Of a stretch of DNA of 64,000 nucleotides, positions 54,577-64,000 are shown piece by piece. A program made the translations under genes and the position numbers. Source of the stretch: Sinorhizobium garamanticum (GTDB lineage Bacteria > Pseudomonadota > Alphaproteobacteria > Rhizobiales > Rhizobiaceae); the NCBI RefSeq assembly GCF_029892065.1, contig NZ_CP120375.1, positions 372,001 through 436,000 of the forward strand, written 5' to 3'. Position 1 is the stretch's first letter; each line of letters begins with the position of its first letter. The notes below the pieces were generated by a model. The model made no database searches. It was not told the origin of the DNA and saw only the letters and a list, made by a program, of their open reading frames with translations.

Positions 54577-55742
54577 GTGGCCTGCATGCTTCCCCAAGCC
54601 AAATCAACGGCAATTAACCCTCTGAAGTCGTCCCAGCCGCTTGGCGCTGCCTTCGCTTTTCTGGGCTTCGACGGCGCAGTGCCACTGTTCCACGGCAGCC
54701 AGGCGTGTACCAGCTTTGCACTTGTGCTGCTCGTTCGGCATTTCGAAACGATCCCGCTGCAGACGACCGCGATGGACGAGCTGGCAACGATTCTCGGCGG
54801 CGAGGATCGTCTCGAAGAGGCGATCCTCAATTCCAAAGCGCGTGCAGAGCCGCAGTTTATCGCGGTCTGCACGACGGTACTGGTAGAGACCGGCGACGAC
54901 GACACCACTTGCGACCTCGCGAACATCAAACTTAAGCGGGCAAGAGAACTTACAGGTACGGAAGTGGTACTCGCCAACGCGCCGGAGGCGCTAGAGGAGG
55001 GTTGGTCCAAGGCTGTTACCGCTATCGTCGACCGAATTGCGCGGCCGGGAAAGCAAAAACCCGCCCCGAAGAAGGTGGGGGACATACGCGATCTCGGCGC
55101 GGCGACGAAGTGCATGGGCACGGGCGAGCACATGCGGCGACCGGCCGAAGCATTGCCACGGTTAACCGCTGTGCCTTACGTGCTGTTTGAGTCGCTGGCG
55201 GGGCTGAAGAATGCGGACAGGTTTATCTTGCTGCTTACGACAGTGTCGGGCGAACAAGCTCCGGCGAAGGTCCTTCGCGGCCGCATGCAGTTGCAGGACG
55301 CCATGCTCGACGGGCACTTCCATCTGGGCGGCAAGAAGATCGCGATCTCCGCGGAGCCGGATCAACTCCTGCAGCTCTCAGATTTTTATGTCGGCATGGG
55401 TGCGAAAATTTCAGCCGCCGTCACCACCGGGACTTCAAAAATATTGCAAAAAGTGCCGGCCGAGACGGTCCAAACCGGCGATCTCTGTGACCTGGAACGC
55501 CTCTCTGCTGGCGCCCACCTTCTCGTGACGCATTCGCACTGCCGTCCAGCTGCAGAGCGTCTCGCCATTCCGCTGATGCATGCCGGATTCCTGTCTTTGA
55601 CAGGTTGGGCAGTCAGCACAAGCTTACAATCCTGTATCAGGGAACGCGCGACATGATCTACGAGGTTGCCAATATCATGCAGGCTAACCAACACCCGCCG
55701 ACGCCTGACGCACTTGATCCAGTCTGTAATCGGGGATTGTAG
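54577..55742 (+). pseudogene. nifN: FeMo-cofactor scaffold protein NifN, internally deleted and frameshifted
   Basis: Starts at GTG 54577 (VACMLPQAKSTAINPLKSSQ; GAGG six bases upstream). The N-terminal half is normal (PLFHGSQACTSFALVLLVRH, QTTAMDELATILGGEDRLEE). After KQKPAPKKV it jumps to GDIRDLGAATKCMGTGEHMR; family members have about 55 more residues between these points. The rest resembles NifN down to IPLMHAGF. There, near 55588-55594, one base is missing: the frame stops at 55656, while the correct frame continues VFDRLGSQHKLTILYQGTRD to a TAG at 55740-55742. Family length is about 440-470; this is about 388. Probably non-functional unless another copy exists. Confidence 0.85.
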
Positions 55743-55743
55743 A

Positions 55744-56241
55744 ATGAGCTCCATTCGTCGTTTCTCGCTCGTCAGTGATAGGTTCCAGAAACAGATGCCG
55801 GAACGGCAGGCAGGCGCATTGCGCATAGCGATCGCCACTCAAGACCTGAAAGGACTGAACGCCCATTTCGGCTCGGCTAGACATTTTGCCGTCTATGACG
55901 TGCTGCCCCACGAGTGGAGTTTTGTGGAAGCCGTTGCATTCGACGACGTTTCTGACGAAAGCGGTAGGCATCGAACCGAAGGTGATGACCGCATCGCTCC
56001 GAAAGTTGCAGCGTTGAGGGGCTGCCAGCTCTTATTTTGTCTCGCTATCGGCGGGCCTTCGGCAGCCAAGGTCATTTCGGCAAAGATTCATCCGATCAAA
56101 GTGCCGCAGCCTGAATCCATCCAGCACTTGCTTTCGCGCATCCAGACAATGCTCAGGACGGCTCCTCCACCTTGGCTACGCAAGGTGGTAGCGGAAGCAG
56201 GCGCAGCCAAAGAGAAACCCTGCTTCGAGAGCGAGGACTGA
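55744..56241 (+). CDS. nifX: Nitrogenase cofactor carrier NifX
   Basis: 165 residues, dinitrogenase iron-molybdenum cofactor-binding fold. Starts MSSIRRFSLVSDRFQKQMPE at the ATG immediately after the correct-frame nifN stop. Core: LRIAIATQDLKGLNAHFGSA, FAVYDVLPHEWSFVEAVAF and LLFCLAIGGPSAAKVISAKI. It holds NifB-co or FeMo-co intermediates between NifB/NifEN and NifDK. Followed 3 bases later by the DUF269 gene. Confidence 0.95.
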   Translation: MSSIRRFSLVSDRFQKQMPERQAGALRIAIATQDLKGLNAHFGSARHFAVYDVLPHEWSFVEAVAFDDVSDESGRHRTEGDDRIAPKVAALRGCQLLFCLAIGGPSAAKVISAKIHPIKVPQPESIQHLLSRIQTMLRTAPPPWLRKVVAEAGAAKEKPCFESED

Positions 56242-56244
56242 AGC

Positions 56245-56730
56245 ATGACAACGTTAGCTGATCCGGCGAGCATCCCGGCTGTCGACCACGGCAAACTCCT
56301 TTCCACCCCCTTTATCAGATGCCTCGTGCGGCTGATACGGGCTCAGGATTCCTACGGATCGTGGGACGGCAAGTGCGACGCTGAGCTGCTGGCCAAGTTC
56401 ATCGTTAAGGAGGAACAACGCCGTGCAATCCCAATCATCGGCGACCCTGATCCGGACGCGCTGTGGAGGCTCGATGTTTATTACGCCGCGGTCGGCCTTT
56501 CTATCGAAGCGCGCTCTGACCTATTGGTGTCGCGGACGATGGAGATCAGCGCCGAGGGCTTCGGGCGAGTAGTATTTACGACCAAGCGGTTGGTCGTGCT
56601 GTCGAAGACCCTGCGCGGCGTTCACCGGTTCGGCTTCGATTCGCTACGCAAATGCGAAAAGACCGGGACAAAGCTGGTGAAGGATGCGGTCGCAGCCATT
56701 GAAGCTTATCCAGACGTAGCGCGGGCGTGA
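56245..56730 (+). CDS. NifX-associated nitrogen fixation protein (DUF269)
   Basis: 161 residues beginning MTTLADPASIPAVDHGKLLS. DUF269 proteins always accompany nifX in alpha- and gammaproteobacterial diazotrophs; their biochemical role is not settled. Conserved stretch RLIRAQDSYGSWDGKCDAEL and RVVFTTKRLVVLSKTLRGVH, then FGFDSLRKCEKTG. Three bases after nifX and overlapping the next gene region, so part of the operon. A degenerate copy of its N-terminus appears at 57758. Confidence 0.93.
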   Translation: MTTLADPASIPAVDHGKLLSTPFIRCLVRLIRAQDSYGSWDGKCDAELLAKFIVKEEQRRAIPIIGDPDPDALWRLDVYYAAVGLSIEARSDLLVSRTMEISAEGFGRVVFTTKRLVVLSKTLRGVHRFGFDSLRKCEKTGTKLVKDAVAAIEAYPDVARA

Positions 56731-56756
56731 TGGAGCCGGTTGTTGGGAAAAAGGCC

Positions 56757-56960
56757 ATGTCAGATTTTGAAGAATTGAAAAAGCAAGTCCGCAAGCTGCA
56801 GTCGCGTGCTGGAACTGCGAAGATGGAATTGCACGACCTCGCGGAGGATCTTCCGGTCAACTGGGCCGAAATCATGGCGGTCGCGGAGAGGACATTCCAC
56901 GCTTTTGCTGAGCTGGACGCTGCCAAGAAAGAATTCGCTGCGTCGGAGGACTCACGATGA
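56757..56960 (+). CDS. CCE_0567-family (DUF683) metalloprotein
   Basis: 67 residues from the ATG at 56757 (MSDFEELKKQVRKLQSRAGT), helical hairpin of the DUF683/CCE_0567 family, which always sits between the DUF269 gene and fdxB. The family binds metal as a dimer; its role in nitrogen fixation is unknown. DLAEDLPVNWAEIMAVAERT is the conserved core. It overlaps the fdxB start (ATGA). An upstream in-frame GTG at 56727 overlaps the DUF269 stop. Confidence 0.9.
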   Translation: MSDFEELKKQVRKLQSRAGTAKMELHDLAEDLPVNWAEIMAVAERTFHAFAELDAAKKEFAASEDSR

Positions 56961-57274
56961 TATGCTCATTCGTGACCCGCGACGGGTCCAGGTGGATGCC
57001 GAAATATCTGACCGCCATCGACGGTGCGACATGCATCGGCTGCGGTCGTTGCTTCAAGGTTTGCTCACGCGAGGTAATGCACCTTCACGGCATCGACGAT
57101 GCAGGTGAAATTCTTGGCGTGTGCGATGGTGAGGACGATAACTTCGATGGCGATCTCAATCGTATGATCATGGTGGTCGACCACCCAGGCCGCTGTATCG
57201 GCTGCGGGGCCTGCGCCCGCGTCTGCCCCAAGAACTGCCAGACTCATATCGGGGCGGACACGATTGCGGCATGA
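56957..57274 (+). CDS. fdxB: Nif-specific ferredoxin III FdxB
   Basis: 105-residue ferredoxin with two cluster motifs: CIGCGRCFKVCSREVMHL, and CIGCGACARVCPKNCQ with an extended loop between them. It donates electrons in the nif pathway, probably for cofactor synthesis. Coupled to the preceding gene by an ATGA overlap. The final bases and the following AACAGGAGAAC leader recur, degenerated, at about 57935-57973, marking a duplication. Confidence 0.94.
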   Translation: MICSFVTRDGSRWMPKYLTAIDGATCIGCGRCFKVCSREVMHLHGIDDAGEILGVCDGEDDNFDGDLNRMIMVVDHPGRCIGCGACARVCPKNCQTHIGADTIAA

Positions 57275-57301
57275 TCCGAGAGAAGAAACAGGAGAACGAT
57301 A

Positions 57302-57529
57302 ATGCGCTTCGCAGTCTTTCATCGCGCCCTATGGCTGTTGCTATGCACCAACGCCATCGCGGTATACTTTGCCTCGCATTCCATTCGCAGATTAATCGTC
57401 AGTACACTAGCGTTCTCGCTGCTTCTTCAGCTCGCTTATTTCGGGAGCGTGCTTTTTCTGCTCTGGCGGGCACGCAGGGCTGAGCACCTAGGCTTTTCGC
57501 GACAAGAACGGCCCGCAATTGATCAGTAG
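57302..57529 (+). CDS. ExoX/PsiA-like exopolysaccharide inhibitor, copy 1
   Basis: 75 residues, two membrane helices (ALWLLLCTNAIAVYFASHS and RLIVSTLAFSLLLQLAYFGS), then LFLLWRARRAEHLG. This is the pattern of ExoX/PsiA/'polysaccharide inhibition' proteins, small membrane proteins that lower exopolysaccharide production in rhizobia. AGGAG seven bases upstream of the ATG. It follows fdxB by 27 bases, so it is likely part of the nif operon, which would reduce EPS in bacteroids (inference). A second copy lies at 57975. Confidence 0.75.
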   Translation: MRFAVFHRALWLLLCTNAIAVYFASHSIRRLIVSTLAFSLLLQLAYFGSVLFLLWRARRAEHLGFSRQERPAIDQ

Positions 57530-57757
57530 GGTACGGCACTCTTTGAAGGTATCCCGCAGCTCCGAGAGAGCCTGGCACCAGCTTGGCACGACGGAAAGCG
57601 CAACGTCACTCCTCGGGGGAAGGGCGTGCTTGGAACATGCCGCGGGAGCATGATGGGATATGAACTTTGCTTGGTTCGGCACCACTGGCAGGCACTAGCA
57701 TTTGGTCCCAGAGGAAACATCTATCGAAAGAACACGTGCTTCGCGGATGATGACTGA

Positions 57758-57960
57758 ATGACTCCAACACTACATGACCCCGCAATTATACCTGCCATCG
57801 ATCGCAATAAGGCCTTGCCGCTGGGGCTGCCGGCACTCGCCGGAGCCAACGAGATGGGATTGCGACTGCGCCGAGGGCAGCCAATTGGATCGAAGTCATG
57901 TCAGGACGTCATTCCTCTGTTGGACTCTTGCAAGGGTGGCCGCATGATCAGACGGCAAAA
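57758..57960 (+). pseudogene. Duplicated fragment of the DUF269 gene head and fdxB tail
   Basis: Reads MTPTLHDPAIIPAIDRNKAL, close to the DUF269 start MTTLADPASIPAVDHGKLLS, then loses similarity. It ends in GGTGGCCGCATGATCAGACG, matching the fdxB end region GATTGCGGCATGATCCGAGA. So a copy of the DUF269-to-exoX segment was made and most of it deleted. Not expected to be functional. Confidence 0.6.
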
Positions 57961-57974
57961 CCAGGAGAACGGCG

Positions 57975-58295
57975 TTGCTCTTAAGAACCGTTCGTTCCAT
58001 TCTATGGCTGCTCCTGTCTACCACTGCTCTTACAATCTACTTAGCTTCGCAGCCCAGCCAGAGCTTAATTGTTACGACACTGGCTTGTTTGCTGCTTCTT
58101 CAACTTGCTTATTTCGGAAGCGTGCTCGTTTTGGTCTGTTTAGCTGCGCTTGGAAAGCTGTCGAAAAACCTGCGCATTCTCGGCCTTCACGACGAGAATG
58201 GGAAACACAATTCTCACGAAAGTCCCAACGGCTGGTGGATTCGCGAGATAAGGGAGGCGCCGTCGCAGGACCCGGACCGTTCCACTCAGAACTGA
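57975..58295 (+). CDS. ExoX/PsiA-like protein, copy 2 with C-terminal extension
   Basis: TTG-started (CCAGGAGAACGGCG upstream, as in copy 1), 106 residues. The two helices match copy 1 nearly residue by residue (ILWLLLSTTALTIYLASQP; LIVTTLACLLLLQLAYFGSV). After LVCLAALGKLSKNLRIL it adds a polar tail of about 35 residues (ENGKHNSHESPNGWWIREIR) absent from copy 1. It ends 13 bases before the halogenase ATG, so the two may be co-transcribed. Confidence 0.65.
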   Translation: MLLRTVRSILWLLLSTTALTIYLASQPSQSLIVTTLACLLLLQLAYFGSVLVLVCLAALGKLSKNLRILGLHDENGKHNSHESPNGWWIREIREAPSQDPDRSTQN

Positions 58296-58308
58296 CGTGG
58301 AATTCTGA

Positions 58309-59829
58309 ATGCTGAATCTGACGAATGCGAGGCGGATAGGAATCGTCGGAGGCGACCTTGTGGGCTGGCTTGCCGCTATTGAGCTACGCCGGGTCTTCGA
58401 ACCAGACGTGGATGTCACAGTCATAGAGACTCCGGAGCTATTTTCATTCGGCCTTGGGGAGGGCGGCTCGCGCAATCTGGTTGATACGTTGTGCCGTAAT
58501 GAGCTCGACTTGGACATTTTCGTTGGTGAAGCCGGCGCCACGTACAAGCTTGGAGTGCTCTATGACAATTGGAGAGGTGGAGGAATTTCAGATCGGTACT
58601 ATCGTCTGTTCTGTGGACCGGGCATCCCGGAAATCGAATGGCGGGTCGATGGCTTCTTTCCTCTGCTGTCGGCGAGAATCGCGATGGGCGAGGACCTTCA
58701 CACTTGCGTTCCAGGATTCGACGCAATCGCAAGGCACGCGTCGCAAAAGGATATCGAGCGATTGCTGGCGACCGGCCAGTCCGGCCTTTGTCGATCCTAC
58801 CACTTTGACGCTGAGGCTTTCGAGCGGTACCTGAAGCGAGTCGGATTGAGCCGTGGGATCATTGCCCATGCGAGCGCTGTATGCGGGATGAGGCTGGACG
58901 AGCGGGGGTGTGTGCGGTCCTTGCATCTCGATGGCGAACAACTGGAGGTCGACTTCGTGATCGATGCGTCGGGATTTGCCAGATTGGGGCTCGGCAGTGT
59001 TTTCGGTACACGCTGGCGGTCTTTCGCAAACACTTTGCCGACCGATCGTGCGATCACTTTTGATCTTGAGCCGTCAGAAATGTGCCCCGATCCCGTAACC
59101 CGTTTGACCGCCATGAAGGCCGGATGGATGTGGGAGGTCCCACTGAATCGCAAGATCACTGCGGGATACGTGTTCAGTAGCAGATATGCGGATCATGCCA
59201 TTGCAGTCGCAGAGGTCGAGCACCGCCTTGGACACCGCGTCCAGCCGAAGCACTTGCTTTCGCTCGATCAAGGCTATTTCGAAACGGCGTGGGTCAATAA
59301 CCTTGTGGCACTCGGAACGGCGTCCGGTTTCGTAGAGCCGCTGGACGCAGCGCTTGCGACCCACACGTTCGAACAGCTAAGGAATATAGGACGCGTTCTC
59401 ACCAACGGAGGTGGGGTCGTGCCTGCTCACACAATCGAAGCTTATAACAGCGCTAACGCGCGCTCGTGGACAGGAGTTCGAGACTTCCTGCGGCTGCACT
59501 ATGATTGCAAACGAAATGACGCACCGTTCTGGCGAGATATTGCGGCAGCCGAGTTGCCAGGAGGCTATGCCGAGCTGAGGGCCTGTTTTCACAAACGGAC
59601 ACCTCGTTGGATCGATATTCAACCCTATGTCGGAAGCGGGTGGCAGGCGTTGTTTCACCAGCTTGATTGGATATCCGTGGCGGCTTCTCTCGGCGTCGTG
59701 CCGGCAAAGGCTGCCCGAGCAGAGCTACGTCGGCTTTCGGCGGAAAGCCGACGTGAGGTCCAAGCCTATCTCGACCTGCTGAACGGAACGATGTCAAGGC
59801 ACCTTCCCCCGAGTGGCTGGGTGCATTAA
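58309..59829 (+). CDS. Flavin-dependent tryptophan-halogenase-like protein
   Basis: 506 residues, PrnA/RebH family. FAD fold: IGIVGGDLVGWLAAIELRR, where the usual GGGxAGW reads GGDLVGW. The catalytic Lys is kept at position 80 in ATYKLGVLYDNW (K79 of PrnA). The WxWxIP signature is GWMWEVPLN (W273-P278). At the PrnA E346 position the sequence is FVEPLDAAL, giving Asp346. So the fold, Lys and Trp box argue for a halogenase, but the Gly and Glu changes may alter activity. No flavin reductase gene nearby. It follows exoX copy 2 closely at the end of the nif cluster. Substrate unknown. Confidence 0.82.
   Translation: MLNLTNARRIGIVGGDLVGWLAAIELRRVFEPDVDVTVIETPELFSFGLGEGGSRNLVDTLCRNELDLDIFVGEAGATYKLGVLYDNWRGGGISDRYYRLFCGPGIPEIEWRVDGFFPLLSARIAMGEDLHTCVPGFDAIARHASQKDIERLLATGQSGLCRSYHFDAEAFERYLKRVGLSRGIIAHASAVCGMRLDERGCVRSLHLDGEQLEVDFVIDASGFARLGLGSVFGTRWRSFANTLPTDRAITFDLEPSEMCPDPVTRLTAMKAGWMWEVPLNRKITAGYVFSSRYADHAIAVAEVEHRLGHRVQPKHLLSLDQGYFETAWVNNLVALGTASGFVEPLDAALATHTFEQLRNIGRVLTNGGGVVPAHTIEAYNSANARSWTGVRDFLRLHYDCKRNDAPFWRDIAAAELPGGYAELRACFHKRTPRWIDIQPYVGSGWQALFHQLDWISVAASLGVVPAKAARAELRRLSAESRREVQAYLDLLNGTMSRHLPPSGWVH
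59727..59754. repeat. Perfect 12-bp inverted repeat inside the halogenase gene
   Basis: ACGTCGGCTTTC / GAAAGCCGACGT with a 4-base centre (GGCG), within the last 110 bases of the coding region. It looks like a palindromic intergenic-type element that has become coding, or a stable mRNA hairpin. Confidence 0.6.
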
Positions 59830-60026
59830 GTGCGACCACGGGAGGCGGTGCTGGTTGGGCGCGACCGGCCACATGCGTCTAACCGCTTCAGGCTAAAGGT
59901 GGGCATGAGGTCCTCATGTAGCTCCGATCCAGATGTTGAGGTTGCACCCTTTTAATCGTCTCGCGTATGAATGGTATACGCAATGGGTGTTGAACCGTTT
60001 AGGAACGCTTAAGTCGGCCCGCGCCC
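59830..60026. other. Convergent intergenic region, halogenase-nodD
   Basis: 197 bases between the 3' ends of the halogenase gene and nodD. No strong terminator hairpin or ORF seen. Confidence 0.4.
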
Positions 60027-60944
60027 TCACGGCGGAGCAACCATACGTGACGCTTCCTGGAGCAGTATCTCCCGCAACCAGATGCTTGCCTGATCCCTAT
60101 TGTGGAGGGCGGGCCATTGGAGAGCCTGGGTGAATGTAGGAAGTGGCAGCGGAAGTTCGATGATCTGCAGGGGGATCATGCGTTCGAAATGCTTGACCAG
60201 CCGCAAGGGCATAGTCGCTATACGGTTAGTACCTGACAGCACGGGCGGAATCAGGCTGAAGCCCGGCACGACGACCTCGACACGTCTCTTGAAGCCGTAC
60301 TCGAGCAACAACCGCTCCTCGACCGAGGGCATCAGCGAACGTCCGAGCTTGGTTGCAACCTGTCCTATCGACATGAATCCCTCCAAGCAAAGCTGCCCCG
60401 ATAGCTTCTCGTTCGTGGGGCAACCGACGCACACGAGTGTCTCGTCGAACAGCTTCGCTTTGGGATGCGCGTTCGGCATGAACGAATCCGGTAGGATTAG
60501 AAAATCGATGTCGCCGCGGAGGAGAAGCTCATCGGGATCGCCATCGAGAGGTAGCAACTCGAAGGTGACGGCGGGAGCCTCCCGGGCCACGCGCTCCACG
60601 ACCCTCTCAAAGAACACGAGTGTCATGAAATCCGAAAGGATGACCCTGAAGCGGCGCTTCGATTGGGCTGGGTTGAACATGTCCCAGGAAATGATGGAGA
60701 ACTGAATGTGCAGCAGGGCGTCGCGGACCGTAGGGGCGAGCGCTTCCGCACGCGGTGTTGGGATAAGTTCGCGGCCCTGCATTTTAAACAACTCGTCGCC
60801 GAAATAGGTGCGTAGCCGCGCGATAGCCGCGCTCATCGCCGGCTGACTGAGGTTGATGCTGCGAGCCGCCGCCGTAACGCTTCGTTTGTTCATCAGAGCG
60901 TCGAGCGCAACGAGAAGATTTAGATCAAGGCCTTTGAAACGCAT
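60027..60944 (-). CDS. nodD: LysR-type nodulation regulator NodD
   Basis: 305 residues from the ATG at 60944 ([20 protein letters not shown], the invariant NodD N-terminus). Helix-turn-helix [20 protein letters not shown]. The effector domain includes [16 protein letters not shown] and [18 protein letters not shown], typical NodD stretches. It activates nod boxes with plant flavonoids. A nod box lies 10 bases upstream on the opposite strand, the classic nodD-nodA arrangement, though no nodA follows. Which nodD paralogue (1, 2 or 3) cannot be decided here; the nearby syrM suggests nodD2. Confidence 0.95.
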
Positions 60945-60954
60945 GTCTTGATGT

Positions 60955-61003
60955 ACCCATGGTGTGGATGATTGGCATCCAAGCAATCAGTTCAGCCGTG
61001 TTG
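60955..61003 (+). promoter_or_regulatory. Nod box divergent from nodD
   Basis: Contains CCCATGGTGTGGATGATTGG followed by CATCCAAGCAATCAGTTC, matching the nod-box halves ATCCAT-N3-GTGGATG and ATC-N-AAACAATC-N-ATTT with a few changes (first T to C, ATTTTACC degenerate). It ends just after 61000. Faces right, away from nodD. Confidence 0.75.
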
Positions 61004-62111
61004 TCGAATAGACGTCGTCGGCTTCACCTCCGGACTGGTGGCTGATTCCTTTGAGTCGACGAATAGAAGATCAGGCGCTTCGTCGCCCACTGAGTCTGGC
61101 TGCCCAAACGAGCGGTGAAGATGTTGACCCCACAACTGAAAGCACTCCGGCACGACAGCTCCGTTCATCGCGCTCAACGCGAAGACCAGAGCATCAGGTT
61201 GGGAGTTTTCTGAAGCGTCGCTCGTAGAGTGACACCGGAGGAGGACCTAATCGTCCAACCCTCCACCCACGAGCCCCAAGACTGTGGTGGCCTCACTGAG
61301 TATCGACCCTGCGCTTCAAGATGGATTTCATTCCGACCTCGTCGCCACTGGACCCATGGGGGTCAAATGCTTCTTCGGTGAGATTACGTCGAAGCGCATC
61401 GGCCGCATCTTCAATCATCGGTGGCGCCTTTCGGTTACAATCAACGAGTGGCGATACTAGTGTCCACCGCGCCGGTCTGGCCATGCAAAGTCTGTATTCC
61501 ATCATACGCCCGGGGCATGGTTGAAAACGCCTTCGAAGGAAGTGCAATGTAATAGCGCTGTAGGCGGACTCTTCAGCGTCTCTCGCAGGCTAATGCAGAT
61601 CACCGGCGACGATGAATTCGATATCGTTGAGATCACCTGGCCCAGCAGGAACGTCAACCAAGCCGGACTGCTCGGCCGGCCACTTCGACAACGATTTCTC
61701 CAGGCCATTGACCGGGCGTCGGGGCCGGCGCGGTTACAGCGCTCGCAACCTGATGCAGCATAAAAGGACACGTGGACATGGACAGTATCCCCTCATGCTG
61801 TCCAACGGAAATGAACACATCCGCGGCGTCCAGAATTGCGGTGGCGACAGGTGACTATGCCGGTGTTCTGGAGCGGTTTGCTTAAGCTCAGTAGAAGGCG
61901 CAGCCGCATCCGGACGATGCCTTTCTGCGTGCACCATCCCCGAAGTCTGATTCGACTTTTGGACCCCTTTGTCGTGGAGGGCCTTAGGTATCGAAGCCGA
62001 CACCTATCCGGGTTGGAGCTTTGCGGCAGTCGCGTCGGGCGGACGCCGTTCAACCCAAATGGACAGGCTCCGTTGGGGGGCTGCTTGCCTGCAGGTAGGT
62101 AAAACGCATGT
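61004..62111. other. About 1.1 kb without a supported gene between the two nod boxes
   Basis: Frames of 60-90 codons occur on both strands (for example 61521-61763 plus, 61293-61547 minus) but none has a convincing ribosome site or family. No nod gene follows the first nod box. I see no IS signature that I can defend. Confidence 0.4.
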
Positions 62112-62160
62112 ATCCATAGCGTGGATGGAAGCTATGCGAAAAGTGGATTTTTCCAGCCTT
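62112..62160 (+). promoter_or_regulatory. Nod box upstream of syrM
   Basis: Begins ATCCATAGCGTGGATGGAAG and continues CTATGCGAAAAGTGGATTTT before TCCAGCCTT. Both halves of the nod box (ATCCAT-N3-GTGGATG and AAA-N3-GATTTT-CCA) are evident. Faces right; syrM starts 735 bases downstream. Confidence 0.8.
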
Positions 62161-62205
62161 GCCGAATGGGATTAGAAAGCCGTGAAATATAACTGGAGGC
62201 AAACG

Positions 62206-62712
62206 ATGGAAAGCCACACCCACCCCAATGCGCACTGTTGTAAAGAACACATGATTGGTAAGGCCGGCCTCGGATTGAAGCGGGCTCCACGAGCAATTCA
62301 CGGGTGTCATGTTCACAGAGGTGATTTTGTGACTATTGCGGTGGTCCAAGTATGGTGTAGCGAGCGTAATCTCGAGTGCAGTCCGCGCGATCACCATCTA
62401 AACGTCGGCAACACGACAAGCTTTTTGCTCGCTTCAGCTCCGTGTATCGCAAGTGGAGAAGCGCGTCTGCCTTTGCCGGAGGCAGCCTGCGACCTCCGCC
62501 ACTTGCGAGTTAATGAGGTCGAAGGTGAAGCAGGAGGGTCTATCTCAACCCCGGCCGTCGACAAGCGGGGCGTCACGATCGAGTTTTGTTCATTGACGAC
62601 GCGCCAAAGCCGCCAAGCCTCTCCTGAGGAGGCTTTGCCGGGGTACGATACAGTCGAAATCATCAATGCAGGCGGGCCGCCAGCCGACGCCATGCAAGGG
62701 TCGAGGACATGA
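62206..62712 (+). CDS. Possible ORF in the nod box-syrM leader
   Basis: ATG at 62206 has GGAGG seven bases upstream and opens MESHTHPNAHCCKEHMIGKA; the frame stays open for 168 codons to DAMQGSRT. Codon use looks irregular and no family is recognised. Only the first part may be real. The region also contains strong inverted repeats (62447-62456 with 62499-62508; 62467-62472 with 62480-62485), so it may act as RNA. Confidence 0.3.
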   Translation: MESHTHPNAHCCKEHMIGKAGLGLKRAPRAIHGCHVHRGDFVTIAVVQVWCSERNLECSPRDHHLNVGNTTSFLLASAPCIASGEARLPLPEAACDLRHLRVNEVEGEAGGSISTPAVDKRGVTIEFCSLTTRQSRQASPEEALPGYDTVEIINAGGPPADAMQGSRT

Positions 62713-62895
62713 ACGGCTGTACATGTGAGCCGCGTCAGGGCAGTTCGAGGGTGTCATAGCCCAAGTGCATCTGACTAGAAAATTGGCAGCCATCCAATCT
62801 GATGGAGAGGTCAGAAGAGTTTTCTTGCACGCTTATTTGATGTTGCAACGCTTGAATTTCAAAGCATTGCACGAAAACACCAGGAGAAGAAACCC

Positions 62896-63900
62896 ATGGA
62901 TCAGCCCGCTTGGAAGCGCCCGAACATGGCGCTGATCGGCGGTCGCGGTGATGCCGCACAACAACGGCAGATGCGGAACCTGACGTCCATCGACCTAAAC
63001 CTACTGGTCGATCTCGAAGCCTTGCTGCAGTACCGGAACATCACTCACGCGGCTCTACATGTCGGTCGGAGCCAACCGGCAATGAGCCGAGCGTTGTCAA
63101 GGCTGCGCGGCATGTTCAATGATGATCTTCTGGTTCGCGGCTCGGGCGGCCTCGTCTTAACGCCGCTGGCCGAAGACTTGGCCCAAATGCTCCCTTCGGT
63201 GTTGGGTACGGTTCGCCAGATGGTGAACTGCAGCTTCGCTCCAAGAGAATGTCGATGGAAGGTGACGATGGCTATTCCCGACCACCAAGCGTTAGTTCTG
63301 CTGCCGCGTCTCCTGCCGCGGCTGCGCGAGCGCGCCCCTCATCTCGACATCGTTACCGATTCGTTCTTAGTTGGCGCGCTGCGTAGACTTGAGCGAGGTG
63401 AGATCGACCTGGCCGTCGGGCAGATCGGTGCCGCTCCGCCCGGCTACCTGCGGCGCAGGCTCTACGAGGATCGCTTCACCTGCTTGCTGCGCCACAATCA
63501 TCCGGCCTTGGCCCAGGAATGGACCATCGGGACTTTCGAGGCTTTGCGCCACGTCGTCATTACCTCGGAATGCAACGACCGCTTCGGGCAGATCTATGAC
63601 GCGTCGGCCAACATCGCAATATTGCTGGATTGCAACCCAATGGTGGTTTCCAACGTATTAACGGCGGCGATCGTGATCGCGGCGACCGACTTGGTGCTAA
63701 TTCTGCCGAACCGCGTGGCGATCCGGATCGCCGCCATGCTGCCGCTCGCGGTTGTCGATCCACCCGTGGAACTGACGCCGTACGAGGCCACGCTGATTTG
63801 GCATGAGCGTTGCCATCGCGACCCGCAGTATCGGTGGCTGCGCCGCGAAATCGCCGCCGCAGCGCGAGCGGCCCAATCAGACGGGGAGGCGACCAAATGA
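62896..63900 (+). CDS. syrM: LysR-type symbiotic regulator SyrM-like
   Basis: 334 residues. ATG at 62896 has CAGGAG eight bases upstream; the SyrM body starts MRNLTSIDLNLLVDLEALLQ. Helix-turn-helix NITHAALHVGRSQPAMSRAL, then RLRGMFNDDLLVRGSGGLVL. SyrM acts with NodD to raise nod and exo gene expression in Sinorhizobium without needing a flavonoid. In strain NGR234 syrM2 is controlled by a nod box and drives nodD2, which fits this layout: nod box upstream of syrM and nodD nearby. The assignment as syrM is by similarity recalled, not searched. Confidence 0.9.
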   Translation: MDQPAWKRPNMALIGGRGDAAQQRQMRNLTSIDLNLLVDLEALLQYRNITHAALHVGRSQPAMSRALSRLRGMFNDDLLVRGSGGLVLTPLAEDLAQMLPSVLGTVRQMVNCSFAPRECRWKVTMAIPDHQALVLLPRLLPRLRERAPHLDIVTDSFLVGALRRLERGEIDLAVGQIGAAPPGYLRRRLYEDRFTCLLRHNHPALAQEWTIGTFEALRHVVITSECNDRFGQIYDASANIAILLDCNPMVVSNVLTAAIVIAATDLVLILPNRVAIRIAAMLPLAVVDPPVELTPYEATLIWHERCHRDPQYRWLRREIAAAARAAQSDGEATK

Positions 63901-64000
63901 TGATTAAACGGACGGCTGAGGAGAGGTGGGCGTTGAAGCACCGGTCGGCTGACGGCATGCTGGCGCTTGAGGATTCAGGATGTAACCGAAGCTCAACCCT
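63897..64000 (+). CDS. Start of an unidentified gene, cut by the window end
   Basis: ATG overlaps the syrM stop (ATGATG), with GGGGAGG seven bases upstream. Reads MMIKRTAEERWALKHRSADG and continues to the edge. The overlap and ribosome site suggest a co-transcribed gene. Too short to identify. Confidence 0.4.
   Translation, partial: MMIKRTAEERWALKHRSADGMLALEDSGCNRSST

Follow-up and report, generated by a model that had tools for sequence, protein, structure and literature searches.

Why should a gene of the flavin-dependent halogenase family, altered at its FAD-binding and catalytic residues, lie just 3' of nif genes in Sinorhizobium garamanticum, and does its product still halogenate? The original prediction for this locus proposed a PrnA-like enzyme attached to the nif cluster, which might make a chlorinated indole or auxin-like signal in nodules or catalyse a changed reaction. 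We followed this up in the window, i.e. the whole stretch of 64,000 nucleotides that was analysed. The gene was found at the predicted position, strand and length, and the sites in it that matter here are:

58309..59829, plus strand: halogenase-fold flavoprotein gene (ATG at 58309, stop at 59829, 506 amino acids)
58348..58368, plus strand: FAD loop GGDLVGW (codons 14-20), in which the second Gly of GxGxxG is Asp (Gly16 to Asp)
58546..58548, plus strand: Lys80 (codon 80), equivalent to the catalytic Lys79
59125..59142, plus strand: WMWEVP (codons 273-278), the WxWxIP box with I changed to V
59329..59358, plus strand: FVEPLDAALA (codons 341-350), the site of the catalytic Glu and the halide (Fx.Px.Sx.G motif) in degenerate form

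The 506-residue product matches Pfam PF04820 (Trp_halogenase) over 451 of 458 profile positions, with 370 bits and E 2.7e-110 (cut-off 21 bits), and structure comparison assigns it the halogenase fold with confidence; this score together with the full fold places it in the family. To call it PrnA-like is imprecise, since identity to PrnA (~24%) is no higher than to other Trp halogenases or to Xcc4156 and BrvH. The Trp halogenases PyrH, SttH, PrnA and RebH and the open-site brominases BrvH and Xcc4156 share with it the whole fold, the Lys and the WxW box, but at 22-27% identity, with a different catalytic Glu and halide site, and the GxGxxG that is broken in the window. Elsewhere in the family, precomputed Pfam assignments for P0106 and P0111 (815 aa; one named Collimonas) combine the halogenase domain with TPR-type repeats. 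Two same-family genomes of 3.5-3.6 Mb (G058 and G157; loci L044, L045, L047 and L048) carry two neighbouring halogenase-like genes and a third elsewhere, 36-43% identical to the window protein.

To place the altered residues, we aligned 11 copies of the locus with 120 homologues (those among the matches listed, of 242 in total). A symbiosis-plasmid clade of 18 rows, identical and near-identical copies included, comprises the 11 loci and 7 of the homologues; the remaining 113 homologues among the matches listed served as the outgroup. The predicted residue states were all recovered: residues 14-20 read GGDLVGW in place of GGGxAGW, residue 80 is Lys, residues 273-278 form WMWEVP, and Asp occupies the position of Glu346, whose equivalence rests on alignments to solved halogenases. 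Position 16 of the FAD loop is Gly in 14 of the 18 clade rows, which thus keep GxGxxG, and Asp in the other four, all of the S. numidicum type and including the window (GxDxxG); among the 113 listed outgroup homologues it is Gly in 109, Asp in one and a gap in three. Lys80 is kept in 16/18 clade rows, the two Arg belonging to one lineage, and in 111/113 of the listed outgroup. Both Trp and the Pro of the WxWxIP box are present throughout the clade (18/18), with the Ile changed to Val in 10 rows and to Ala in 8.

The region around Glu346 has changed much more. The near-invariant EPL-E-A-T-S-I-G of the relatives reads EPL-D-A-A-L-A-T in the window. At position 346 the clade has Glu in eight rows (the NGR234-type group), Asp in four, Gly in four and Gln in two, against Glu in 111/113 of the listed outgroup. 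At position 348 every one of the 18 clade rows has Ala, versus Thr in 107/113 listed homologues outside, and position 349 is Leu (15) or Pro (3) versus Ser in 110/113; the Ile that follows in the motif is present in 104/113 of the listed homologues outside. The residues after Ala347, here Ala and Leu, are what we take to be T348 and G349 of PrnA. Neither Fx.Px.Sx.G nor a halide-site Thr followed by Gly or Ser is present in the window (F341, P344, A347, A348, L349). Broken copies of the gene (see below) likewise read AAL where the site is legible; the match in G017 ends at residue 221, with the site outside it. Fx.Px.Sx.G is a motif by which halogenases are recognised (PMC7336383, PMC12871659), though Xcc4156 and BrvH are described as active halogenases lacking the usual Gly at the halide site (PMC7336383 / PMC12871659). 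The change from Glu to Asp would not by itself imply a new reaction, because PrnA E346D is a solved mutant structure, low activity remains after the same exchange in MalA, and phenol halogenases have no catalytic Glu (PMC8407142); the exchange of Glu for Gln in PrnA lowers activity by two orders of magnitude (PMC8407142). Judged from the alignment, the exchange of Glu for Asp is one minor element of a larger change that the original prediction had missed, a clade-wide loss of the halide cradle. Among the outgroup, P0057 (Bartonella) also has GGD in its FAD loop, lacking the third Gly, and has Ala for the halide-site Thr, and P0009 shows in the alignment a Trp-binding loop shorter than that of RebH.

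Has the protein kept a use since that loss? In a tree of 79 rows (quick method, LG+G4, with 67 hand-chosen homologues of the 120 listed), the 15 symbiosis rows form one group (SH-aLRT 100, stem 0.42) nested inside relatives mostly with the canonical motif. Close in kind are P0008-P0020 (PF04820 members from unclassified Ensifer, Agrobacterium deltaense, Pseudomonas, one labelled S. meliloti, and others), which belong to the same subfamily and align nearly full length at 48-57% identity; they differ from the window in falling outside the symbiosis clade and in mostly keeping Glu, Thr and Ser, the exceptions being Glu to Lys in P0008, Thr to Val in P0014 and Ser to Met in P0016 and P0018. Ten halogenase sequences gave a maximum-likelihood omega of 0.233, and ten neighbouring nodD sequences gave 0.216; the two sets share nine genomes and differ by one each (G022 versus S. 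alkalisoli). Pairwise dN/dS between the window and eight copies of other lineages was 0.168-0.215, and by region (ratio of means) 0.10-0.20, rising to 0.30 in the C-terminal 46 residues; 64 of the 92 positions conserved in ≥95% of 104 outgroup rows are kept in all eight chosen lineages. Since the halide motif is absent from every clade row, selection within the clade is selection after its loss, and purifying selection of this strength indicates a protein that was useful without a halide site. Halide-site loss across the clade together with this constraint suggests that the gene encodes a conserved flavoprotein that has probably lost halogenase activity.

Orthologues at 66-97% identity occur in other rhizobia, nearly all at the same place, which is far beyond chance; both gene and neighbourhood are therefore conserved, so that the lack of conservation that would have told against the original prediction is not seen. 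Within the genus, 15 of 33 genomes carry the gene. It is open at full length in eight (G000, G007, G018, G019, G022, G024, G026, G027), truncated near the C-terminus in one (G016, the S. numidicum record, with an adjoining IS1182 family transposase) and broken in six (G001, G008, G017, G020, G025, G028), the G025 copy also lying at a contig end. Among 394 genomes of the family there was one further high-identity copy, in another genus (G102), split by a frameshift, so that across all carriers 7 of 16 copies are broken and one more is truncated. The lesions vary (IS5, IS1182, various frameshifts), with the same break residue in G008 and G020, where an IS5 element lies in the S. sojae record (at the coordinates of G020) and in S. 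fredii plasmids. At the level of the order, 15 of 397 genomes gave a match and, besides the window, these were only relatives at 34-38% identity. Plasmid records above 60% identity number only 10, all Sinorhizobium; the named carriers are isolates from soybean, Sesbania and Argyrolobium, and also NGR234, a strain of broad host range. One 97% homologue (P0001) is labelled S. meliloti, a symbiont of Trifolieae.

Such breakage raises the alternative that the gene is dead weight, a former halogenase whose function was wholly lost in the symbiosis clade and which is now decaying. Differing lesions in so many copies speak for it, as does the window lineage itself: across 479 codons, the window differs from the S. 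numidicum copy by 17 nonsynonymous and 8 synonymous codon changes, a ratio with P = 0.007 under an omega of 0.233 and fully compatible with neutrality, and the FAD loop is damaged. (The nodD neighbour of the same pair differs by 6 nonsynonymous and 6 synonymous changes over 304 codons.) For the clade as a whole, however, the lineages that already lack the halide motif have an omega equal to that of the nodD neighbour, and about 3.7% of single changes in this reading frame create a stop, so that at synonymous distances near 0.9 among copies, eight open frames would hardly be expected without constraint. We therefore consider decay of the whole clade unlikely, while taking it seriously for one lineage: the Gly16 to Asp damage and the near-neutral changes relative to S. 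numidicum suggest that the window copy, of the S. numidicum type, is losing function, on the strength of 25 changes, which are few, in a pair of copies of which one is truncated. A changed reaction of the window protein is possible, but the FAD-loop change fits erosion too, given that NGR234-like relatives keep GGGIVGW and that so many copies are broken. In the public S. numidicum record, the annotated halogenase CDS starts 17 codons late (L003:12052 versus 12001), so that the beginning of the damaged FAD loop is left out.

We then considered what surrounds the gene. The neighbouring features are:

56245..57274, plus strand: upstream nif-associated genes (NifX-associated, CCE_0567-type and fdxB; TIGR02935 193 bits, TIGR02936 137 bits, and annotation of the L003 equivalents)
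57302..57529, plus strand: first SyrA/ExoX-like gene (49% to an NGR234 SyrA-like protein; L003 equivalent annotated exopolysaccharide production repressor protein)
57648-57674, plus strand: SyrM-box-like element before the second SyrA-like gene and the halogenase gene (0 mismatches)
57975..58295, plus strand: second copy of the SyrA-like gene (PF11089 SyrA, 50.6 bits; 62.8% to the syrA-position ORF of S. meliloti 1021 pSymA)
60027..60986, minus strand: NodD2/NodD3-like LysR regulator (75.7% to NGR234 NodD2; 75.3% to the nodD3-position ORF of S. meliloti 1021)
61481..61507, minus strand: weaker second SyrM-box-like element upstream of the NodD-like gene (4 mismatches)
62896..63900, plus strand: SyrM-like LysR regulator (74% to the LysR ORF adjoining the nodD3-position ORF of S. 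meliloti 1021), presumably SyrM, given the nodD3-syrM adjacency

Between the stop of the second SyrA-like gene and the start of the halogenase are 13 nt. Thirteen of the 15 genus carriers have a SyrA-like gene upstream (in G022 none was seen over 1.5 kb, and in G025 the place is cut off). Downstream, the available flank contains a NodD2-like gene in 10 of the 15, a count that rises to 11 when G016 is represented by the longer named S. numidicum record; in G008, G017, G020 and G022 that flank showed none. In S. meliloti 1021 the order is fdxB, syrA-position ORF, nodD3-position ORF and a second LysR gene (names from annotated relatives), and the interval from the syrA-position to the nodD3-position ORF gave no halogenase match. 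The closest named counterpart is the 'tryptophan halogenase family protein' of S. fredii NGR234 (pNGR234a 101570-103084), an orthologue at 72.7% identity with the same order of SyrA-like gene, halogenase and nodD2 and a SyrM-box-like element upstream; it differs in keeping GGGIVGW and the Glu, and in a gap of ~430 nt between SyrA-like gene and halogenase, compared to 13 in the window.

Several further observations concern this region. The tandem SyrA/ExoX-like genes (57302-57529 and 57975-58295) are 64% alike over 45 residues; two SyrA-like copies also occur in L007, L009, L018 and L020, and S. alkalisoli (L007) has two NifX-associated copies as well. These tandem copies look as if a module had been duplicated. 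From the operon of other lineages one would expect a NifX-associated remnant in the stretch that separates the SyrM-box-like element from the second SyrA-like gene; the DNA similarity there was no more than weak (best E 0.11). No RNA family reached its gathering score in 55000-64000. In S. terangae an ACC-deaminase gene is annotated directly after the SyrA-like gene (L066:8626-9639), and an ORF ~0.6 kb beyond the window end (L013:6556-7569, minus strand) appears ACC-deaminase-like by eye. Flavin reductase (PF01613) has two matches in the genome, both on contig C1; none was found near the halogenase gene, and a distant reductase can serve. In S. alkalisoli a flavin reductase gene lies ~4 kb from the halogenase pieces.

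The element at 57648-57674 is SyrM-box-like by a pattern that we derived here from NGR234 and the window (GCAT...GG.ATATGAA.TTTGC.TGG), so that its 0 mismatches arise by construction. It is the sole match in the 6.83-Mb genome at ≤3 mismatches (control, 0), and none occurred in 100 shuffles. Because of how the pattern was drawn, independent support comes from two other occurrences of the element, one preceding NGR234 nodD2 (1 mismatch) and one preceding the S. meliloti nodD3-position ORF (2 mismatches); at the S. meliloti syrA-position ORF the match is weaker, its 5 mismatches being a level also reached in shuffles (2 in five 64-kb shuffles). As a sign of nif regulation we also considered -24/-12 sigma-54 promoters, of which the window shows no excess, with 28 sites at ≤2 mismatches versus 30.4 expected, among them a one-mismatch site at 57573-57588.

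Published expression data point in the same direction as the element. Genistein and NodD1 are reported to induce the S. fredii HH103 operon psfHH103d_306-311, which carries a putative SyrM box (-127 to -62) and whose last gene, psfHH103d_311 ('Partial tryptophan halogenase'), has a log2FC of 3.6 with genistein (PMC4990936); SyrM is reported to be required for the two HH103 operons with a well-defined SyrM box (PMC10771577), and from these reports the operon depends on both NodD1 and SyrM. From its name and operon, we infer that psfHH103d_311 is the orthologue of the window gene, sharing its product name and its place at the end of a SyrM-box operon but differing in being described as partial (PMC4990936). 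The NGR234 element would then lie at the place of the putative HH103 box, if psfHH103d_306 is the NifX-associated gene, and by analogy the halogenase gene of S. garamanticum may be under SyrM control. As the promoter element and the neighbours belong to the SyrM/flavonoid circuit, the gene seems to belong with plant flavonoid signalling and not with nitrogen fixation. The proposed attachment to the nif cluster is thus right as to position, 3' of the nif genes, and wrong or without support as to function, given the SyrA-, NodD- and SyrM-like neighbours and the SyrM-box-like element.

Induction by a flavonoid suggests another alternative, in which the protein is still a halogenase, for electron-rich phenols such as flavonoids, and modifies the plant signals that induce it. 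The catalytic Glu is absent from phenol halogenases (PMC8407142), expression in HH103 follows genistein (PMC4990936) and Lys80 is retained in all lineages but one. The Ala and Leu or Pro that replace the halide-site Thr and Ser or Gly in every clade row, with Fx.Px.Sx.G gone, argue the other way, and so does the partial state of the gene induced in HH103 (PMC4990936); on balance this seems to us quite unlikely. We give even less credence to a non-catalytic role, in which the FAD- and aromatic-binding fold would serve as a binding or regulatory partner, for instance of SyrA or of a LysR regulator. Constraint despite a drifting catalytic Glu and the tight linkage to the SyrA-like gene and the NodD-like gene would fit such a role, but most clade rows retain GxGxxG, Lys80 and WxW, which suggests that flavin chemistry still matters. 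Finally, the tryptophan or indole halogenase of the original prediction, making chlorinated auxin in nodules, has in its favour the family name and fold, nearest solved folds that are Trp halogenases, the presence of 4-Cl-IAA, made by an unidentified halogenase, in Trifolieae and Fabeae legumes (PMC8774696) and the S. meliloti label of P0001, but it is highly improbable and the gene a poor candidate for the 4-Cl-IAA halogenase, since the halide site is lost in the whole clade, nothing specific to Trp was found, and the carriers, few and all Sinorhizobium among the plasmid records, do not follow 4-Cl-IAA plants, with no match at the S. meliloti 1021 interval.

The explanation that we favour, at somewhat less than even confidence when taken as a whole, is a non-halogenating FAD-dependent oxygenase or oxidase in the SyrM circuit, with the window copy decaying. 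A common ancestor on Sinorhizobium-type symbiosis plasmids would have recruited a halogenase-fold gene into this circuit, in which flavonoid acts through NodD1 and then SyrM on the halogenase-like operon. The recruited protein would then have given up its halide cradle and come to do without the catalytic Glu, while retaining the FAD domain, the Lys and the Trp box. Intact copies are most likely non-halogenating FAD-dependent oxygenases or oxidases that act on a small aromatic substrate in early nodulation; in the S. numidicum-type lineage, to which the window belongs, the FAD loop has been damaged as well, and function is probably being lost. Where the FAD loop is intact, FADH2 from a reductase encoded elsewhere (such as the PF01613 matches on C1) would load the protein and, following the halogenase mechanism, oxygen would yield a flavin hydroperoxide; with no halide cradle, no hypohalous acid would form, and the hydroperoxide may oxidise the aromatic substrate or decay. 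A precedent is QhpG, a flavoprotein monooxygenase whose broad fold resembles FAD-dependent halogenases and which demonstrates hydroxylation by a fold of this kind (PMC7876137). Full retention of WxW speaks against the oxygenase step, because this box is thought to block monooxygenation (PMC7336383 / PMC12871659). The window protein is not itself a QhpG by the NCBIfam model (24.9 bits versus a cut-off of 240); the absence of QhpG from the matches listed (50 VIA-align entries) excludes nothing.

In print, the literature on halogenases in rhizobial symbiosis, as covered here with few subscription papers, yielded the gene solely as a table row in PMC4990936. No paper was found under the names guessed for the NGR234 gene (y4xD to y4xG), and the main text of the NGR234 bacteroid transcriptome (PMC3732241) makes no mention of a halogenase.

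On a bolder reading, a former halogenase induced by flavonoid and SyrM may have acquired a new oxidation of a plant or bacterial aromatic, for example the flavonoid signal, and would provide enzymatic feedback in the NodD1-SyrM-NodD2 circuit, an idea that we regard as conceivable rather than likely. Regardless, the clade is a case in nature of a halogenase lineage that has lost its halide site, with a drifting Glu and the remainder under selection, and hence a test of what the fold does without halide, with an intact copy at hand in the sister strain NGR234, which is a laboratory strain.
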